Virus record (IMG/VR): IMGVR_UViG_3300021090_000099 | Coordinates: 1-25,927 of that record | Direction: 5' to 3' (one strand) | Length of the DNA: 25,927 nucleotides | Source: a virus | Program-made: the position numbers and the translations under genes | Shown here: piece after piece, positions 287 through 25,816 of the stretch | Position numbering within the stretch: the first letter of the stretch is position 1 | Layout of the letters: each line of letters begins with the position of its first letter | Notes under the pieces: generated by a model | Database searches by the model: none | What the model was told of the DNA's origin: nothing | Seen by the model: the letters and a program-made list of their open reading frames with translations, nothing else

Positions 287-580
287 CTACTCCTTAGCGG
301 GTGTGTTATATTTATTTTCAAGATCCAACACTTCTTCTGCTTGATTGACTAGTTCATAATTTAAATGAATAAATTTCGTTGCCCCCATTCGTTCCAGCAC
401 TTCACTCATCGAACGGTGAAAGGTCAAGGCAATCGACGAGAGAATAGACGCCTGGAAGTCTCTCGACTGATCTTGAGGAAGGTGCTGGATCACTACTTCG
501 ATCAAAGCCTCATTCAATTGAGACACTTGTTTCTTGATCTCTGTGACCTTCCGGTAGAATTCAAGTTCATTTGTGCTCAT
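287..580 (-). CDS. hypothetical helical protein, 97 aa
   Basis: The start is the ATG at 580, which overlaps the stop of the HAD gene as ATGA and has GGAG five bases upstream. A longer in-frame start at 625 lies inside the upstream gene and is less likely. The protein (MSTNELEFYRKVTEIKKQ...) is acidic, lacks membrane segments and is predicted mostly helical, with heptad-like hydrophobic spacing. I do not recognise a family. Coupling to the HAD phosphatase suggests co-expression. Confidence 0.75.
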   Translation of the reverse strand: MSTNELEFYRKVTEIKKQVSQLNEALIEVVIQHLPQDQSRDFQASILSSIALTFHRSMSEVLERMGATKFIHLNYELVNQAEEVLDLENKYNTPAKE

Positions 581-1071
581 TTCTGCTCCACAGCAAAGGA
601 CTTGGGTGTGATCTCGCGAAGCCAATCAGGGATCTTTTTCGCATATCGACGGTCAAACTCATCGACGGCCCTTCTCCACTGGAATGATCCTTCCTGGCGT
701 TCCCACGCCCCTTCTGACGGTTCCACTGTGATCGCTCGATCATCGAAGAAGCAAATAATCGACGCAGGTTTCAAATAAGGCCACACATAATCAAGCGGAA
801 TATCATGCTCAACCCCCCAAGCATGGATGTTATTAACAATCTTATTCACATTTTGAAACTTTCCATCAAGCCCAGAAATATGAGTGCGGGTCGTAAAGAC
901 CATGATCTTGAGCCCTAGGCTCTTAAAGTACAGCATGGCATCACGAGCCCCAGGGCGAGGAAGGCCAAATCCAGGGTAGTGGTGATCTTCCATCAGCGTC
1001 CCGTCTAAATCAACTGCAATCCATGGCCAATCGGTCGTCTGGATCGTCACAGGTTTTTTTTCGTCAGACAT
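577..1071 (-). CDS. HAD-superfamily phosphatase, 164 aa
   Basis: This protein carries the haloacid-dehalogenase motifs. Motif I is VDLDGTL with nucleophile D21 and acid/base D23. Motif II is FTTRT around residues 59-63, the motif III lysine is about K101 (LKPAS), and motif IV is FFDDRA at 108-113. At 164 aa it fits small phage HAD phosphatases related to 5'(3')-nucleotidases or the phosphatase half of polynucleotide kinase; the substrate cannot be read from sequence. AAGGGGG precedes the ATG, and a separate promoter lies just upstream (1089-1117). It overlaps the membrane peptide gene by 8 bases. Neighbouring nucleotide and DNA genes suggest a nucleotide or DNA-end phosphatase, which is inference. 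Confidence 0.85.
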   Translation of the reverse strand: MSDEKKPVTIQTTDWPWIAVDLDGTLMEDHHYPGFGLPRPGARDAMLYFKSLGLKIMVFTTRTHISGLDGKFQNVNKIVNNIHAWGVEHDIPLDYVWPYLKPASIICFFDDRAITVEPSEGAWERQEGSFQWRRAVDEFDRRYAKKIPDWLREITPKSFAVEQK

Positions 1072-17443: not shown

Positions 17444-17472
17444 ACTATAACAGATTCCTTATCTCCTGTCAA
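17444..17472 (-). promoter_or_regulatory. strong sigma-70 promoter, TTGACA-17-TATAGT
   Basis: On the minus strand a perfect -35 (17472-17467) and TATAGT (17449-17444) are 17 bases apart, feeding the DUF551-like gene. Its -35 lies 32 bp from the -35 of the rightward promoter, giving a back-to-back pair. Confidence 0.8.
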
Positions 17473-17504
17473 GAAATAAATCGTACTTAAAGTGAAAATA
17501 ATGC

Positions 17505-17533
17505 TTGACATCCATCACAATCTGTGGTAAGAT
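17505..17533 (+). promoter_or_regulatory. strong sigma-70 promoter of the structural operon, TTGACA-17-TAAGAT
   Basis: TTGACA (17505-17510) and TAAGAT (17528-17533) are 17 bases apart. The predicted start near 17540 is about 12 bases before the tRNA-like gene, and no terminator separates that from the beta-helix gene. Confidence 0.8.
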
Positions 17534-17551
17534 CTAATTACGTCAATCATT

Positions 17552-17626
17552 GCCCTTTTAGCTTAACTGGTAAAGCCCCGGTCCTGTAAACCGGCGTTCG
17601 GCGTCCAAGTCGTCGAAAGGGCTCCA
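17552..17626 (+). tRNA. tRNA-Thr(TGT)-like gene with encoded CCA
   Basis: A complete 75-base cloverleaf can be drawn. The acceptor GCCCTTT pairs perfectly with AAAGGGC, followed by T and CCA. The D-arm is GCTT/AAGC with loop AACTGGTA, the anticodon stem CCGGT/ACCGG with loop CCTGTAA, and the T-arm CGGCG/CGTCG (one G-U) with loop TCCAAGT. The anticodon reads TGT (Thr, ACA). Odd points: base 33 is C instead of the almost universal U, and the T-loop starts TCC instead of TTC. It may be a functional divergent tRNA, a defective one, or a tRNA mimic at the head of the late mRNA. Confidence 0.75.
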
Positions 17627-17647
17627 CATCAAGGAGGGTATCCGAAC

Positions 17648-18622
17648 ATGTCGCTTCGTACACTGAACACCAGTATTTCAAACCCGGCGAACAAATATGG
17701 CTCGTACCTTGAGCGAGAATTGCTGGCACTCAAATCGAACCCGGCTGGAACGGCCCGGTATGTCAATGCCGATCCTGGTGGAACCGGAGACGATACCGCC
17801 GATGGGCTCTCTCCGTCAACCGCCTATCTGACAATGGCGAAGGCCCTCTCGGTCGTGAATACTCTGGATACCGTCTACTTCTGGGGTGATGTACGAGAAG
17901 AGGTTGTGGGGAACCATTTGGCCTTCGATGTAACCATTGTGGGCCTGGGGAGCCTCCATCACCCCGATTCCCCAGCCACAGGGTACAAAGTTGGGTCCTC
18001 GATGTGGCGTCCTCCGTCGTCTCCGACGACAGCCACCCCCCTTCTGAAACTTCGTGGTCGTGGATGGAACTTTGTGAACATGGCGTTTGACGCCCCGGTG
18101 GATGCAGCGGCGGTGAAGATGGAACGGAATGCTCTGTCTGGCACCTCCGAATATGACCCGAGCCATGCCAGCTTCTTAGGCTGTCGGTTCGTGGATGGCA
18201 AGTATGGGATTGAGGATAATGGTGGTTCCTATAACGTGACCCTCCATGAGTGCGAATTTAAGGCCATGACCACAGCGGCGATTGCTAATACCAGTACGTC
18301 GGTGGCGAATCCCCTCAACTGGAAGATCACGAGCAATCGCTTTCCGTCCAATGTGTCGAGTTTCGGGAATGCCACCCATATTGATTCCCCGCTGAACTGT
18401 GCGATTATCAAGGGGAATATCTTTGGGACGGTTACAGGCACCGGGCTGTACGTGGATCTGACGGGTGGGAACGGGAATGTCGTCACAGAGAACGTGATGG
18501 CTGGGCTCTATGACACCACAGATTACGTGGCGGGTACGGGAGACGTGTGGTATCAGAATTGGACGGTCGTGAAGGCGACGACTTCACCTGATGGCACGTC
18601 GATTCTTCCTCCGGCCGCTTAA
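17648..18622 (+). CDS. right-handed beta-helix (pectate-lyase-like) virion protein, 324 aa
   Basis: AAGGAGG is 9 bases before the ATG. After a helical N-terminus (about 1-35), ARYVNADPGGTGDDTADGLS and PSTAYLTMAKAL form the classic entry to parallel beta-helix proteins. Repeated strand-turn units follow, such as NFVNMAFDAP, SFLGCRFVDGKYGIEDNGG, NVTLHECEF, KITSNRF, AIIKGNIFG and NVVTENVMAG. In phages such folds form tail spikes, fibres or head decorations. Here it is the first gene of the head operon, far from any tail gene in view, so a head or portal-proximal fibre is possible. No catalytic residues identified. Confidence 0.75.
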   Translation: MSLRTLNTSISNPANKYGSYLERELLALKSNPAGTARYVNADPGGTGDDTADGLSPSTAYLTMAKALSVVNTLDTVYFWGDVREEVVGNHLAFDVTIVGLGSLHHPDSPATGYKVGSSMWRPPSSPTTATPLLKLRGRGWNFVNMAFDAPVDAAAVKMERNALSGTSEYDPSHASFLGCRFVDGKYGIEDNGGSYNVTLHECEFKAMTTAAIANTSTSVANPLNWKITSNRFPSNVSSFGNATHIDSPLNCAIIKGNIFGTVTGTGLYVDLTGGNGNVVTENVMAGLYDTTDYVAGTGDVWYQNWTVVKATTSPDGTSILPPAA

Positions 18623-18630
18623 TACAGACA

Positions 18631-18726
18631 ATGTGGGAACGCCTGTGTGCCTGGTGTAGACACCCACTCAAGAAGGCCCATCCACAGGAGGTGGTCTACT
18701 GCCCCTGTGGGTGGGAGTGGCGATGA
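18631..18726 (+). CDS. zinc-ribbon mini-protein, 31 aa
   Basis: The peptide begins MWERLCAWCRHPLKK and has CAWC (6-9) and CPC (24-26), enough for one zinc site, with Trp-rich ends. Its stop overlaps the terminase small-subunit start as ATGA. It is below usual length cut-offs and fills the gap exactly. No strong ribosome site. Confidence 0.5.
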   Translation: MWERLCAWCRHPLKKAHPQEVVYCPCGWEWR

Positions 18727-19520
18727 CGATTGGCCGGTCAGCACGACTGACGGCGCAGAGACACGCCAAGCAAGATCACGTCACCGAGCACGATGTTCCT
18801 CAACTCTTCCGTTGGATCGGGCAAGAAAAACCGGCAACCCAACAGCCGGCTTGGGATGAGTTTAAACAGTCGATTTCTCTGATTCTGAGAGACGGACCAC
18901 GCCGAATGCGGCAAGATACCAAACGATTGGTAAAGATCGAGGCGGTCACGAAGCAATTGGTCGAGGCTCTTGAGCTAGGGGCCTCTGTGGACACAGCAGC
19001 GGCCTACGCGGGTATCAAGCCCACGGAGTTTAGGGAATGGTTGTCCCTTGGCCACACACGGCCCAGATCCATCTACGCGGCTTTTTTGGGCATCATCCAA
19101 GCCGCCATCGCCAAGTGTGACATCCAAGACCTTCAAGTCATCTCGAAGGCGGCGTCTGAGGGCGAATGGAAAGCCTCAATTGAGCGGTTGAAGCTCCGGG
19201 GGTTTGGCAATCAGGCCCTCACCGAGAAGAAGCCGGTCCAAGTCAAGATCGTCAACTACAACTTTGCCGCCCCTCCGAAGAAAGTCATCACTCAGGTCCT
19301 TGATTTAGACACGCTGGAATATACGAAGGAAGAGCCTCATGCCATTGAGTTCAGGGAAGAGTCCGAAGAGCTTTCAGAAGAATGTGACGACACTGATGCA
19401 CGAGGGAAAATATCCTCAGAAGCAAGTCCTCGCCATCGCGTACTCGAAGCAGCGGGAGTCGAGGGAGGGGAAACCCCGTCGGAAACCGGCGAAAAAGAAA
19501 TAACAGTCTCCCATGACTGA
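18723..19520 (+). CDS. terminase small subunit candidate, 265 aa
   Basis: Residues about 75-105 (LELGASVDTAAAYAGIKPTEFREWLSLG) form a helix-turn-helix as in phage small terminases. A helical stretch (FLGIIQAAIAKCDIQDLQVISKA) and an acidic C-terminal tail follow. It would recognise the packaging site and hand DNA to the large subunit at 21346-22755. ATG 18723 has GGGAG upstream and an ATGA overlap; 18711 is an alternative. The unusually long acidic tail may bind the large subunit (inference). Confidence 0.7.
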   Translation: MTIGRSARLTAQRHAKQDHVTEHDVPQLFRWIGQEKPATQQPAWDEFKQSISLILRDGPRRMRQDTKRLVKIEAVTKQLVEALELGASVDTAAAYAGIKPTEFREWLSLGHTRPRSIYAAFLGIIQAAIAKCDIQDLQVISKAASEGEWKASIERLKLRGFGNQALTEKKPVQVKIVNYNFAAPPKKVITQVLDLDTLEYTKEEPHAIEFREESEELSEECDDTDARGKISSEASPRHRVLEAAGVEGGETPSETGEKEITVSHD

Positions 19521-21101: not shown

Positions 21102-21346
21102 TGCTACAGCGCATTATCATTGGTACCATTCTTGGCCTTCTTCTCATAGGGTGTGGGGCCAGCCATAAATTGATGCTTGATGAAGTGGGGATGCTTCATG
21201 CCCAAAATGAGAACCTAAAAAAGCAAGCGGATACTTATGCCCAACTCATTGCCGAGAATCAACTGGCTCTTGGGAAATTAATTGAAGAGCATCACATCCT
21301 TGCAGACCAGATGCTCACTGAGACGTGTAAACCTCGTGTGTTTTAA
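21101..21346 (+). CDS. predicted lipoprotein with coiled coil, 81 aa
   Basis: The signal peptide MLQRIIIGTILGLLLIGC ends in a lipobox L-I-G-C with lipidated C18. Residue +2 is Gly, compatible with the outer membrane. Residues 25-70 form a coiled coil (LDEVGMLHAQNENLKKQADTY...). This resembles o-spanin or Rz1-like lipoproteins in layout, but there is no adjacent i-spanin. Superinfection exclusion is another option. TAATG overlaps link it to both neighbours, so it is made with the packaging proteins. Confidence 0.7.
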   Translation: MLQRIIIGTILGLLLIGCGASHKLMLDEVGMLHAQNENLKKQADTYAQLIAENQLALGKLIEEHHILADQMLTETCKPRVF

Positions 21347-22755
21347 TGGCGGCACCACGACGATCTACTTCCAGAGTTCAAAAGTTCGTAGAAGGGGACC
21401 TGACTCGAACCGCTGAGGTTCAAATCCCGTTTCGATTCGTTCCACGACCCTATCAGATGATCCCCTTTAATGATCTTCAACGAGGGATCAAGCGCATTGG
21501 GCTCTGTTGGCATCGTCGTTCAGGAAAAGATAAAACATGCTGGAACTTAACGATCTCAGAAGCCTGCCGTCAAGTGGGGACGTACTTTTATGTCTTCCCC
21601 CTTCTCAATCAGGCACGCAAAGCGATTTGGCAGGCGAGAGGGAAGGATGGGATCAAGTTTCTCGACCACATTCCCCCAGCCCTCATCAACGGGGAGCCCA
21701 AAGACACCGAAATGTTGGTGCCACTTTGGAATGGGTCGAATATTCAGTTATTGGGGTCTGATAATGCCGACGCCTACCGGGGAACCAATCCTATGGGGGT
21801 GGTATTCTCAGAATTTGCATTCACAGACCCCAAAGTCTGGAATATGTTCCGCCCTATTCTTGCAGAAAACGGTGGGTGGGCTGTCTTCAATTCAACTCCT
21901 TATGGAAAGAACCACTATTACGACCTCAAACAGAAAACAGAGGGCAATCCCCGATGGCATTGGACGACCTTGACCGTTGATGATACGTACAACGAAGAGG
22001 GTAATCCTGTCGTCACGCAGGAGATGATCGAGGAAGATCGCCTGTCGGGTATGGAGGAAGAATTCCTTCAACAAGAGTATTATTGTTCCTTTACTGGGAG
22101 CATGATTGGCAGCTATTATGGCCGGTTGGTGGAAGAAGCGGAACGTGAAGGTCGAATTGGACTCTCAACCCAATACGATCCCACTCTTCCGGTGTACACT
22201 TCGTGGGATATTGGGACACGAGATACGACTGCTATTTGGTTTTATCAAAAGAAAAATCGTTGTATCTATTTCATCGACTATTTTGAGGATTCTGGTGAAG
22301 GTGTCGAACATTACATCAAGCACCTCTACCAACAGAAATACACGTATGCAAAGAACTACACCCCCCACGATATCAAGAAGCGTGACTTCTCAACAGGAAA
22401 AAGCGCGATTGCGGTGGCGGAAACCCTGACCAGTAAAGCCGGGTTCTTTACCGTCGTTCCTGTGATGCCGATTGATGTGGGGATTCAGGCGGTTCGTTCG
22501 ATCTTTCCTCGGTGCTTCTTTAACTCAATTAAAGTTAAACGGGGTATTGACGCCCTGAAAGATTATCATAAAAAGTATGATGCAGAACGGAAACTGTTCT
22601 CCACTTCCCCGGACCATTCGTGGTCATCTCATGCCTCGGATGCGTTTCGGATCTTTGCAACAAGTTTTGAAGAACCTCTTGTGTCTTCTGGTGAAGTTCA
22701 CCGACGGCGACCTTCTCGTGGTGGATCGCCTGGATCTGATTGGATGAGACGTTGA
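21346..22755 (+). CDS. terminase large subunit, 469 aa
   Basis: The ATPase has Walker A WHRRSGKDKT (55-64), Walker B VVFSEFAF (152-159) and coupling motif FNSTPYG (181-187). The RNase H-like nuclease shows TSWDIGTRDTTAIW (D288, D293), YFIDYFEDSGEG and the final DHSWSSHASDAFR. It drives ATP-dependent DNA packaging and cuts the concatemer. Length is normal for P22/HK97-type terminases. The C-terminal tail is Arg-rich (HRRRPSRGG...). It is TAATG-coupled to the lipoprotein and overlaps the portal start. Confidence 0.93.
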   Translation: MAAPRRSTSRVQKFVEGDLTRTAEVQIPFRFVPRPYQMIPFNDLQRGIKRIGLCWHRRSGKDKTCWNLTISEACRQVGTYFYVFPLLNQARKAIWQARGKDGIKFLDHIPPALINGEPKDTEMLVPLWNGSNIQLLGSDNADAYRGTNPMGVVFSEFAFTDPKVWNMFRPILAENGGWAVFNSTPYGKNHYYDLKQKTEGNPRWHWTTLTVDDTYNEEGNPVVTQEMIEEDRLSGMEEEFLQQEYYCSFTGSMIGSYYGRLVEEAEREGRIGLSTQYDPTLPVYTSWDIGTRDTTAIWFYQKKNRCIYFIDYFEDSGEGVEHYIKHLYQQKYTYAKNYTPHDIKKRDFSTGKSAIAVAETLTSKAGFFTVVPVMPIDVGIQAVRSIFPRCFFNSIKVKRGIDALKDYHKKYDAERKLFSTSPDHSWSSHASDAFRIFATSFEEPLVSSGEVHRRRPSRGGSPGSDWMRR

Positions 22756-24728
22756 AAATAGCCGAAGATGTTGATGCCTCGATGTCCGGTCGGAGCAATC
22801 CTTTCCTCACGAAAGCCCTCAAGCGCCTGAAACGGGCGGCTGAAACTGACCACCACAATCGGGATGCTTACCAGCAAGATATGAAGTTCTTTCTTGGGAT
22901 GGACCAGTGGGACGCTGCCATAAAAACAGAACGGGACACGGATGGCCGGCCCTCATTAACATTGAATCAACTCCCTCGATTCGTGGACCAGGTGGTTGGA
23001 GATATCAGGCTCAATTGTCCACGCATTAAGACGCGGCCAGAATCGAAAGACGCCACAGTTGAGATGGCAAAGATTTATGATGGGATTATTAAGAATATCG
23101 AATATCGTTCCGAAGCAGAAACGATTTATGATACCGCCGCAGAGTCGATGGTTGCTGGGGGATTAGGCGCATGGCGAGTCACTACCAAATATTCTGATAC
23201 CGATACATTCGAGCAAGAGATTGCGATTGAATGGATTCCTAACCCCCTGAGCGTGTATTTTGATCCCCGCCCTTTTGATCTGGATAAAACATTCGCAGAT
23301 TGGTGTTTTGTCACTGAATGGCTCAGCCGGGAAGAATTCACCGAGCGTTATCCTGATATGGACCCATCTTCCCTCCCGGATGTTGGATCAGGGGACACTG
23401 AGGGCTGGTTTGAGAGGGATAAAGTCAAAATTGCTGAATACTGGATTCGGGAAGCGATTGCCAAAAAGATTGTTCAGTTATCAGACGGATCTGTACTGGA
23501 TGAGGATAAAGCGAAAGATCGCCTGGAGCAAGAAAAAGCCAAGCAGTCGGTGATCGCCTTAACGACTCCAGGTGCTCCGCTTCCTCCAGATATAGAAGTC
23601 GTTTCAGAACGCATGGTCAATTCCTATCGGATCAAGCGATATATTATCTGTGGATCAGGGATTTTAGAGGGTCCAGAAGAGTTTCCAGGAACAATCATCC
23701 CTATTGTACCTCTGTATGGGAAAATGATTATTGTTGAGGGGAAGCGATATATTCGCGGCATGGTGCGAAATGCTGCGGATGCTCAGCGGATGTACAACTA
23801 CTGGCGTTCAGCGGAAATTGAATTTGTGGCTCTTCAACCAAAGTCTCCGTGGCAAGGGACACCGAAGCAAATTGAAGGATTTGAGGCTGACTATAAAGAG
23901 GCCCATCGCCGCAATATCGCCGTTCTGAGATATAACCCAGATCCAGCCGCACCAGAAAAACCATCTCGGATGGCACCCCCGCAGGCGTCTCCTGGTATGT
24001 TCCAGGGCTCAACACAGTCATTAGAAGATCTCAAAGCTTCGATGGGAATGAGCGAAGCTTCATTGGGAATGTCTGGCAATGAGCGGACAGGAAAAGCGAT
24101 CCGTGCTCGTCAGACCGAAGGAGACGTGGGAAACTTCTCCTATGTGGATAACCTCTCCAGGGCGCTCAGATTGACTGGCAAGATTATTATTGGCCTGATT
24201 CCTAAAGTTCATGATACCAGCCAAATGCTTCGTCTTCGTGAGCATGATGATACGGAACAATTGGTGCCTGTCAATACACCCGACCGAGGGGAAAAAGGCG
24301 AACCTGTTATTCTCAATGATTTGACCATCGGGAAATATGGCATCATGGTTGATACAGGTCCCTCATTTACGACAATGAGGCAAGAAGCGGCTGAGGGGAT
24401 GATGAGCTTCGGCCAGATGTACCCAGAAGCCCGCCCCTATATTCAGGATCTTGTGGCGAAGTCTCAAGATTGGGAATATGCCAAGGAGATTTCTGACCGT
24501 TTGAAGAGGCTCTTGCCTCCCCAGGTTCGTGAAGATGTTGATCCGAAGACGATTCCTCCTGATCCGAAACAAGTGATTGCAGAATCGAAGGCTGAGATTT
24601 CAAAGATCAAGATTGACATTGAAAAGTTGAAAGTGATGAAAGCCTCATTGAACGTCCAGAAAGAGGGGACGAGTGTGCGGAAAGAAGTGATCGACATTCT
24701 TGAACAACTCTTTAGTGAGAGGGGGTGA
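22752..24728 (+). CDS. portal protein, P22-type, 658 aa
   Basis: The signature LEDLKASMGMSEASLGMSG, then NERTGKAIRARQTEGD, GNFSYVDNLSRALRLTGKII and LIPKVHDTSQMLRL matches P22-like portals. The N-terminal region NRDAYQQDMKFFLGMDQWDA and QLPRFVDQVVGDIR also fits. The dodecameric portal forms the DNA channel at one vertex. Length is near P22 gp1. The C-terminal helix (VIAESKAEISKIKIDIEKLK) is charged. The start is uncertain: TTG 22752 overlaps the terminase stop as TTGA, TTG 22740 and ATG 22782 are alternatives, and none has a strong ribosome site. Confidence 0.92.
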   Translation: MKIAEDVDASMSGRSNPFLTKALKRLKRAAETDHHNRDAYQQDMKFFLGMDQWDAAIKTERDTDGRPSLTLNQLPRFVDQVVGDIRLNCPRIKTRPESKDATVEMAKIYDGIIKNIEYRSEAETIYDTAAESMVAGGLGAWRVTTKYSDTDTFEQEIAIEWIPNPLSVYFDPRPFDLDKTFADWCFVTEWLSREEFTERYPDMDPSSLPDVGSGDTEGWFERDKVKIAEYWIREAIAKKIVQLSDGSVLDEDKAKDRLEQEKAKQSVIALTTPGAPLPPDIEVVSERMVNSYRIKRYIICGSGILEGPEEFPGTIIPIVPLYGKMIIVEGKRYIRGMVRNAADAQRMYNYWRSAEIEFVALQPKSPWQGTPKQIEGFEADYKEAHRRNIAVLRYNPDPAAPEKPSRMAPPQASPGMFQGSTQSLEDLKASMGMSEASLGMSGNERTGKAIRARQTEGDVGNFSYVDNLSRALRLTGKIIIGLIPKVHDTSQMLRLREHDDTEQLVPVNTPDRGEKGEPVILNDLTIGKYGIMVDTGPSFTTMRQEAAEGMMSFGQMYPEARPYIQDLVAKSQDWEYAKEISDRLKRLLPPQVREDVDPKTIPPDPKQVIAESKAEISKIKIDIEKLKVMKASLNVQKEGTSVRKEVIDILEQLFSERG

Positions 24729-24952: not shown

Positions 24953-25816
24953 GTGAGTCAGACCCAGACCACTAACACCGTTGAGAAGACGGGCGCGGAG
25001 GCCGTACAAGTTCTTGGAAGCCAGGCCACTTCCACAGAGGAAGCACCACAGCAAGCGGAACAGGTTGTTGCAGCACCGATTCAAGAGACAGTTGTACAGG
25101 AGCCAAAAGAAGGAACACCTGAATGGGCAACCAAGCGGTTTTCTGAACTGACCGCACAGCGAGAAGAGCAAAAACGCCTCGCTGATGACAACGCAAGGGA
25201 ACGCGATTTTTACAAGAAGATCGCATTGGAGAAGGCGGGCCAGCCATCGTCTGACCAGCCAGTCGTCACAACTCCAAATCCTCTTGATGTTGAGCCCAAA
25301 GTTGATGACTTTACAGACTATGGGGATTTTGTCAAAGCCTCGGTAGACCATCAAGTCAGGCAAGCCGTTCGCACGATGCAGTCCCAAGCGGCGCAGATTC
25401 AAACTGTGCAAGAACGGACCAAGAAGTTCTTTTCTTCGGCTGAGGCGTTTAAGAAAGAAACACCGGACTTTGACTCTCTGATTACCAGTCCGTCGTTTGT
25501 GCAGTCTGAACCTGTGGTCGAAGCGATTCTGCATTCGACGAAAGGCCCACAGATTGCTTATTTCTTAGCGAAGAATCCTGAGATCTCGTCTCGATTGAAT
25601 CAATTGTCCCCGTTTGAAGTGGCGCTTGAAATCGGGAGAATGGAGGAACGATTGACCCCTCCGACTCCAAAAGTCATTACACAAGCTCCTAGGCCCCTCC
25701 AGACTGTCTTAGCCGGTAACGAAGTAGTGAATAAAGAGCCTGAGAAGATGAACATGGAGGAATATGCAAAAGAGAATGAACACCGCTTTGCTTGGCCAAG
25801 GAAAACCAAACGATAA
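24953..25816 (+). CDS. scaffold-like protein, 287 aa
   Basis: A GTG start follows AAAGGGG by 8 bases. Residues 1-60 are Thr/Gln/Glu-rich and disordered. A charged helical core follows (WATKRFSELTAQREEQKRL..., VDHQVRQAVRTMQSQAAQ, SRLNQLSPFEVALEIGRMEERL), and the end is basic (FAWPRKTKR), as in scaffold proteins whose basic C-terminus binds coat. Position between portal and coat protein matches P22 gene order. It would nucleate procapsid assembly and then leave. Confidence 0.8.
   Translation: MSQTQTTNTVEKTGAEAVQVLGSQATSTEEAPQQAEQVVAAPIQETVVQEPKEGTPEWATKRFSELTAQREEQKRLADDNARERDFYKKIALEKAGQPSSDQPVVTTPNPLDVEPKVDDFTDYGDFVKASVDHQVRQAVRTMQSQAAQIQTVQERTKKFFSSAEAFKKETPDFDSLITSPSFVQSEPVVEAILHSTKGPQIAYFLAKNPEISSRLNQLSPFEVALEIGRMEERLTPPTPKVITQAPRPLQTVLAGNEVVNKEPEKMNMEEYAKENEHRFAWPRKTKR

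Follow-up and report, generated by a model that had tools for sequence, protein, structure and literature searches.

We propose that the tRNA-like element lying between the promoter and the first protein gene of this phage structural operon is, in all likelihood, a functioning tRNA with minor peculiarities and not a novel RNA cap or decoy. With good confidence it is predicted to be a phage tRNA-Thr(UGU) gene, the first of a rightward structural unit, which would be co-transcribed with that unit, excised and used in translation. Its two departures from the tRNA consensus, C33 in the anticodon loop and C55 in the T-loop, are variants compatible with tRNA function, and the locus is best read as an ordinary, fast-evolving phage tRNA cassette.

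The tRNA gene and its operon

The DNA analysed, referred to here as the window, is the 25,927-base viral record IMGVR_UViG_3300021090_000099 (positions 1 to 25,927). Profile searches identify phage genes for a P22-like portal, terminase, a scaffold protein and a family A DNA polymerase; a phosphoheptose isomerase-like gene is also carried (577-1071, minus strand, phrog_1238). Among annotated phages, nothing matched the window at the DNA level and no relative informative for its tRNA was recovered, and since the portal and polymerase reach at best about 38% and 26% identity or lower with those phages, no host was assigned. A scan of viral contigs with the DNA polymerase gave no matches. The features of the leader and of the structural operon, two of which were compared with the related contigs G002 and G004 described below, are as follows.

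17444-17472, minus strand: divergent sigma-70-type promoter TTGACA-17-TATAGT for the leftward genes (sequence; same arrangement in G002 and G004)
17505-17533, plus strand: sigma-70-type promoter TTGACA-17-TAAGAT with TG before the -10 box, predicted start about 17540 (sequence; conserved in G002 and G004)
17552-17626, plus strand: tRNA-Thr(UGU), 75 nt, CCA encoded (ARAGORN, Rfam, read from sequence)
17583-17589, plus strand: anticodon loop CCTGTAA, with C33 for U33 at 17584 and anticodon TGT at 17585-17587 (sequence)
17604-17610, plus strand: T-loop TCCAAGT, with C55 for U55 at 17605; C56 and A58 kept (sequence)
17623-17626, plus strand: 3' end, with discriminator U73 at 17623 and CCA at 17624-17626 (sequence)
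17631-17637, plus strand: Shine-Dalgarno site AAGGAGG, with ATG at 17648 (sequence)
17648-18622, plus strand: beta-helix-like gene, 324 aa, first protein gene of the operon (PF13229, below gathering cut-off; close relatives 83-93% identical)
18711-19520, plus strand: terminase small subunit-like gene, structural operon (phrog_4102)
21346-22755, plus strand: terminase large subunit, structural operon (phrog_2)
22740-24728, plus strand: P22-like portal protein, structural operon (PF16510)
24953-25816, plus strand: head scaffolding protein, structural operon (phrog_8865)

The first-pass annotation, made from the letters of the window, had described a strong promoter about 12 bases ahead of a complete cloverleaf with CCA, then AAGGAGG and the beta-helix gene with no terminator between, and this description holds. 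The promoter matches the consensus at 10/12 positions plus the TG, its predicted start lies 12 nt upstream of the tRNA, and no terminator-like site was found between the tRNA and the beta-helix gene. In the window, and equally in the three relatives with a complete leader, the predicted transcript of the structural operon has a tRNA at its 5' end. The -35 boxes of the two divergent promoters start 33 nt apart, a spacing identical in the window, G002 and G004, and the pair suggests a single predicted control region shared by the leftward and structural genes. Such back-to-back consensus promoters are seen in three phages (window 17444-17533; L108 443-532; L111 4187-4276).

The identification of the element as a tRNA was confirmed by profile. 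ARAGORN calls tRNA-Thr(tgt) at 17552-17626, and the one Rfam family with a match in the window is RF00005, at 51.1 bits (E=2e-8; gathering score 29). The stems of 7, 4, 5 and 5 bp are all fully paired, as had been claimed, with one G-U pair in the T-stem, and the two variant loops read exactly as first reported. The usual U33 of the U-turn is replaced by C33; in the elbow, U54, C56, A58, G18 and G19 are retained and only U55 is changed. The identity determinants of threonyl-tRNA synthetase are G1-C72, C2-G71, G35 and U36, and all four can be read in the window tRNA. Reading the anticodon loop in a shifted register, as GUA (Tyr), would disrupt the 5-bp anticodon stem and was rejected on that ground. 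Thermodynamic folding does not single out the element (z=-0.13) and gives no support either way; the evidence for a predicted tRNA is the profile score together with what the relatives show, not the folding energy.

From this anatomy a simple pathway would be expected. RNA polymerase would start about 12 nt upstream of the tRNA, RNase P would cut away the upstream leader and 3' maturation at the encoded CCA would release a normal L-shaped tRNA, leaving a structural mRNA with a short leader before the Shine-Dalgarno site. The tRNA, which carries the threonine identity features, would be charged with threonine and would supplement translation during infection. The structural genes make frequent use of threonine codons (ACA 44 and ACG 45 of 174).

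An exchangeable tRNA in the leader

A scan of viral contigs with the beta-helix protein recovered four close relatives (83-93% identical). In two of these (L002/G001 and L003/G002), a tRNA-Ala(UGC) occupies the corresponding position downstream of the shared promoter. A third, G003, begins inside a tRNA-Thr with C33 and the T-loop TTTGAGT. The leader of the fourth, the 40-kb contig G004, holds a tRNA-Ala with C33 and the T-loop ATCGTAC and then a tRNA-Thr that is canonical in both respects (U33, TTCGAGT). The anticodon loop of the relatives' tRNA-Ala is CCTGCAA, and the spacing from tRNA to ATG ranges from 21 to 38 nt across the window and its relatives. The leader therefore carries a changeable tRNA cassette, and this cassette is evolutionarily labile, with Ala, Thr or Ala plus Thr found behind one promoter. 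Such swapping and stacking is more easily reconciled with interchangeable tRNA genes than with a single conserved structure acting in cis. More distant beta-helix relatives (61-71%, L006-L013) belong to other phages and have no tRNA there.

C33 recurs in 4 of the 5 distinct tRNAs at the leader position, the identical tRNA-Ala of G001 and G002 being counted once; the G004 tRNA-Thr keeps U33 and TTCGAGT. This tRNA-Thr is a homologue with a normal U33 and TTC loop, which the first-pass annotation had named as the mark of an ordinary tRNA. Together with the C33 tRNA of Pumilibacter discussed below, it disfavours the earlier suggestion that the altered invariant bases denote a role other than decoding.

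Compensatory stem changes, which the earlier reader had proposed to look for in homologous phages, occur in both the tRNA-Thr and the tRNA-Ala sets. All 65 of 65 scored cells of the three tRNA-Thr are paired (100%), with both-sided changes in two anticodon-stem pairs and in the elbow pair 19-56 (G-C to A-U). Between the two distinct tRNA-Ala, five pairs are changed on both sides, in the acceptor, anticodon and T stems and at 54-58 (U-A to A-U). The G002 copy has a mismatched acceptor pair 6-67 and a non-standard 18-55 contact. G3-U70 and A73 are the alanine determinants, and both are retained in all tRNA-Ala. These tests draw on few sequences and the shuffle results are modest (11-15 of 500), yet the apparent paired changes in stems and elbow argue against decay.

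Some further observations concern the G004 contig. At both ends of its 40,143 bases (L108 and L109) the tRNA-Thr 3' end and the beta-helix start recur in copies that differ slightly, so that two strain variants of a genome of roughly 40 kb have probably been joined in this contig. Upstream of the G004 promoter, at about 760-700 of L108 (minus strand as read), lies a reversed GGGTTCGATTCCC-like stretch that is possibly a tRNA remnant and has no ARAGORN or Rfam call. No plasmid match to the G004 tRNA-Thr was found. In L108 and L111, matches to miRNA families come from AT-rich hairpins, do not reach the gathering scores and were discarded.

Position 33 and the elbow beyond the clade

C33 is widely distributed. 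A tRNA-Ala(UGC) pattern with C33 identified 49 stretches in viral contigs, nearly all complete cloverleafs, and 65 in genome contigs, mostly of Clostridia, where nearly all of those read were likewise complete. The corresponding Thr(UGU) pattern matched at least 120 viral stretches, of which most of those read are complete tRNAs and a minority chance matches; a U33 pattern, run on viral contigs as the denominator, likewise gave at least 120. Many of the loci L161-L225, including L183 and L208, come from a Clostridia group with C33 in tRNA-Ala(UGC). In Acidithiobacillus sulfurivorans (L193, contig C101 of G020), C33 is present in Ala, Thr, Gln and Ser tRNAs of a dense tRNA array that resembles phage or mobile-element arrays.

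The most informative cellular case is Pumilibacter. In G017 and G018 the C33 tRNA-Ala(UGC) is the only match to a pattern with bases 32 and 33 left open; since that pattern fixes the D-arm and 29 distinct tRNAs were read of the 46 Rfam matches in the genome, a second Ala(UGC) copy may still exist. In G017 (L509) the gene adjoins tRNA-Ile. A looser TGC pattern gave mostly chance matches in Pumilibacter and was set aside. A tRNA with the anticodon UGC is needed for GCA codons, and because the lone copy found has C33, this base very probably allows decoding. U33 is thus usual in tRNA and not strictly defining.

The frequencies of C33 come from loci fetched by tRNA patterns and are not an unbiased census: at loci selected for a U33 tRNA-Ala, 11 of 855 other phage tRNAs have C33 (1.3%), and at C33-selected loci 27 of 332 and 49 of 597 do (8.1-8.2%; p below 1e-7 against the U33-selected loci). 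C33 therefore clusters in the same phages. It is also enriched in tRNAs with G at anticodon base 35 (38/334 vs 49/1450, p=4e-8), as would be expected if strong pairing tolerates a weaker U-turn.

The T-loop was surveyed in the tRNAs of the fetched viral loci L113-L160 and L226-L464. Here 191 of 1,991 distinct phage tRNAs (about 10%) depart from TTC..A, compared with 1 of 130 tRNAs in the bacterial control, which is small and comes from five genomes picked because they carry C33. The departures are ordered. C55 occurs with a D-loop GG in 33 of 33 cases and G55 with AG in 52 of 56. Among the 362 tRNAs with clear D-loops, the 18-55 pair is G-U in 331, A-G in 18 and G-C in 13 with no others, and the 19-56 pair is G-C in 353, A-U in 6 and C-G in 1 with 2 exceptions; both co-variations exceed all 2,000 shuffles. 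The 54-58 pair is A-U in 46 phage tRNAs, and A54 occurs with A58 in 21; according to a GtRNAdb survey (PMC7566577), bacterial tRNAs lack unusual A54/A58 pairs. The matched elbow sets seen in phage tRNAs are A18 with G55, G18 with C55, A19-U56, C19-G56 and A54-U58. The C55 and G18-G19 of the window belong to this wider set and would not by themselves indicate lost function. A link between C33 and T-loop changes was tested and rejected (22/208 with C33 vs 168/1778 with U33, p=0.62).

This re-pairing of the elbow across phages is of more interest than the locus itself. Bases nearly invariant in cells are altered in the departing tenth of the sampled phage tRNAs, in matched D-loop and T-loop combinations. 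Phage tRNAs thereby offer a mutational experiment done by nature on the elbow, and the swaps give a testable lead on the host enzymes (modification, processing, defence) that phages avoid. No paper on a phage-wide elbow pattern was found in the literature searched, an absence that is no proof of novelty.

Alternative readings and known systems

Some observations count against a plain working tRNA: C33 in 4 of the 5 clade tRNAs, against the baseline of about 1.3% in the phage tRNA sample, is more than neutral drift would readily give, and the G002 tRNA-Ala combines its acceptor mismatch with the non-standard elbow contact. A tentative and rather unlikely refinement, not exclusive of the preferred reading, is that the tRNA decodes and that C33, perhaps with the T-loop change, was selected for preventing recognition by an anticodon nuclease of the host or by another defence that targets tRNAs. 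There is precedent in phage tRNAs whose altered anticodon loops are predicted to confer insensitivity to nucleases, VapC among them (PMC10264068), and in phage tRNAs that counter retron and PrrC defence (PMC11555353). C33 is, moreover, common to the clade's tRNA-Ala and tRNA-Thr and clusters in the same phages, although common descent, the taxa of the hosts or a loosening of constraint may account for part of that difference (8.1-8.2% vs 1.3%, p below 1e-7). The G35 enrichment also fits a loosened constraint in anticodons that pair strongly. One clade member keeps U33 in its tRNA-Thr, C33 is also found in the chromosomal tRNA-Ala of Clostridia, no defence gene was found near the locus beyond one weak PADLOC match, and no mention of U33 or position 33 was found for the published examples in the searched text of PMC10264068. 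That the C33 class as a whole (concentrated in the G35 anticodons of Thr, Ala, Ser and Pro and clustering in the same phages) decodes yet would escape a U33-dependent host tRNA nuclease is a wider claim that we hold to be rather doubtful. If true, C33 and the swapped elbow pairs would form a general phage strategy in which tRNA shape is kept and the sequence read by host enzymes is changed.

The remaining explanations deny the element a function in decoding or make it incidental. The conserved first position behind the promoter, the intact fold and the lack of a terminator before the gene would suit a cis-acting 5' element that mainly protects or processes the structural mRNA (an RNase P/RNase Z signal or 5' cap); we consider this unlikely, as either tRNA alone or the tandem serves at the same place, the ATG lies anywhere from 21 to 38 nt away, and aminoacylation determinants and CCA, needless for a structural cap, are retained. 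A decaying pseudogene, suggested by the two altered conserved bases of the window copy and the acceptor-stem mismatch in the G002 tRNA-Ala, is very improbable given the compensatory changes in stems and elbow, the retained CCA and the complete pairing of the tRNA-Thr set. Least credible of all is a charged tRNA acting outside translation, as a decoy or as an aminoacyl donor comparable to the staphylococcal cell-wall tRNA-Gly. It would account for the alteration of both U33 and a T-loop base with aminoacylation determinants intact, but the single Ala(UGC) copy found in free-living Pumilibacter has C33, C33 and T-loop changes are unassociated (22/208 vs 168/1778, p=0.62), and T-loop changes accompany matching D-loop changes that keep the elbow. 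The loss of elbow contacts that would make EF-Tu binding fail in the cell-wall type is not seen, the 19-56 pair being apparently kept by compensatory change in the relatives and the elbow bases co-varying in phage tRNAs.

A working tRNA in this position has several counterparts. In the E. coli operons metY-nusA-infB and thrU-tyrU-glyT-thrT-tufB a tRNA at the 5' end of a protein-gene transcript is cut out; the window tRNA likewise heads a transcript with protein genes, from which it would be excised, whereas the E. coli operons are cellular and have canonical loops. Stx phages carry the ileZ-argN-argO tRNA genes near the 5' end of the late operon, much as the window tRNA lies near the 5' end of a predicted phage structural transcript; they are unrelated phages and their loops are not known to depart from the canonical form. 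The phage-encoded tRNAs with anticodon-loop mutations of van den Berg et al. 2023 (eLife 12:e85183, PMC10264068) share with the window a phage genome, an intact fold and an altered anticodon loop; they differ in that the window change is at base 33, of which no mention was found in the searched text of that paper, and in that one or two tRNAs are present here rather than a large array. The tRNA-Tyr that counters retron-Eco7 (PMC11555353) is expressed from a strong promoter, and the window tRNA also stands directly behind one; it differs from that tRNA-Tyr in heading a structural operon and in having at most a conjectural tie to defence. The chromosomal C33 tRNA-Ala(UGC) of Clostridia (Pumilibacter G017 and G018; L183, L208) has the same CCTGCAA loop as the relatives' tRNA-Ala but is cellular, lies beside tRNA-Ile and has a TTC T-loop. 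What the locus contributes to this set is a phage-encoded tRNA cassette that follows a conserved divergent promoter and opens a structural operon.
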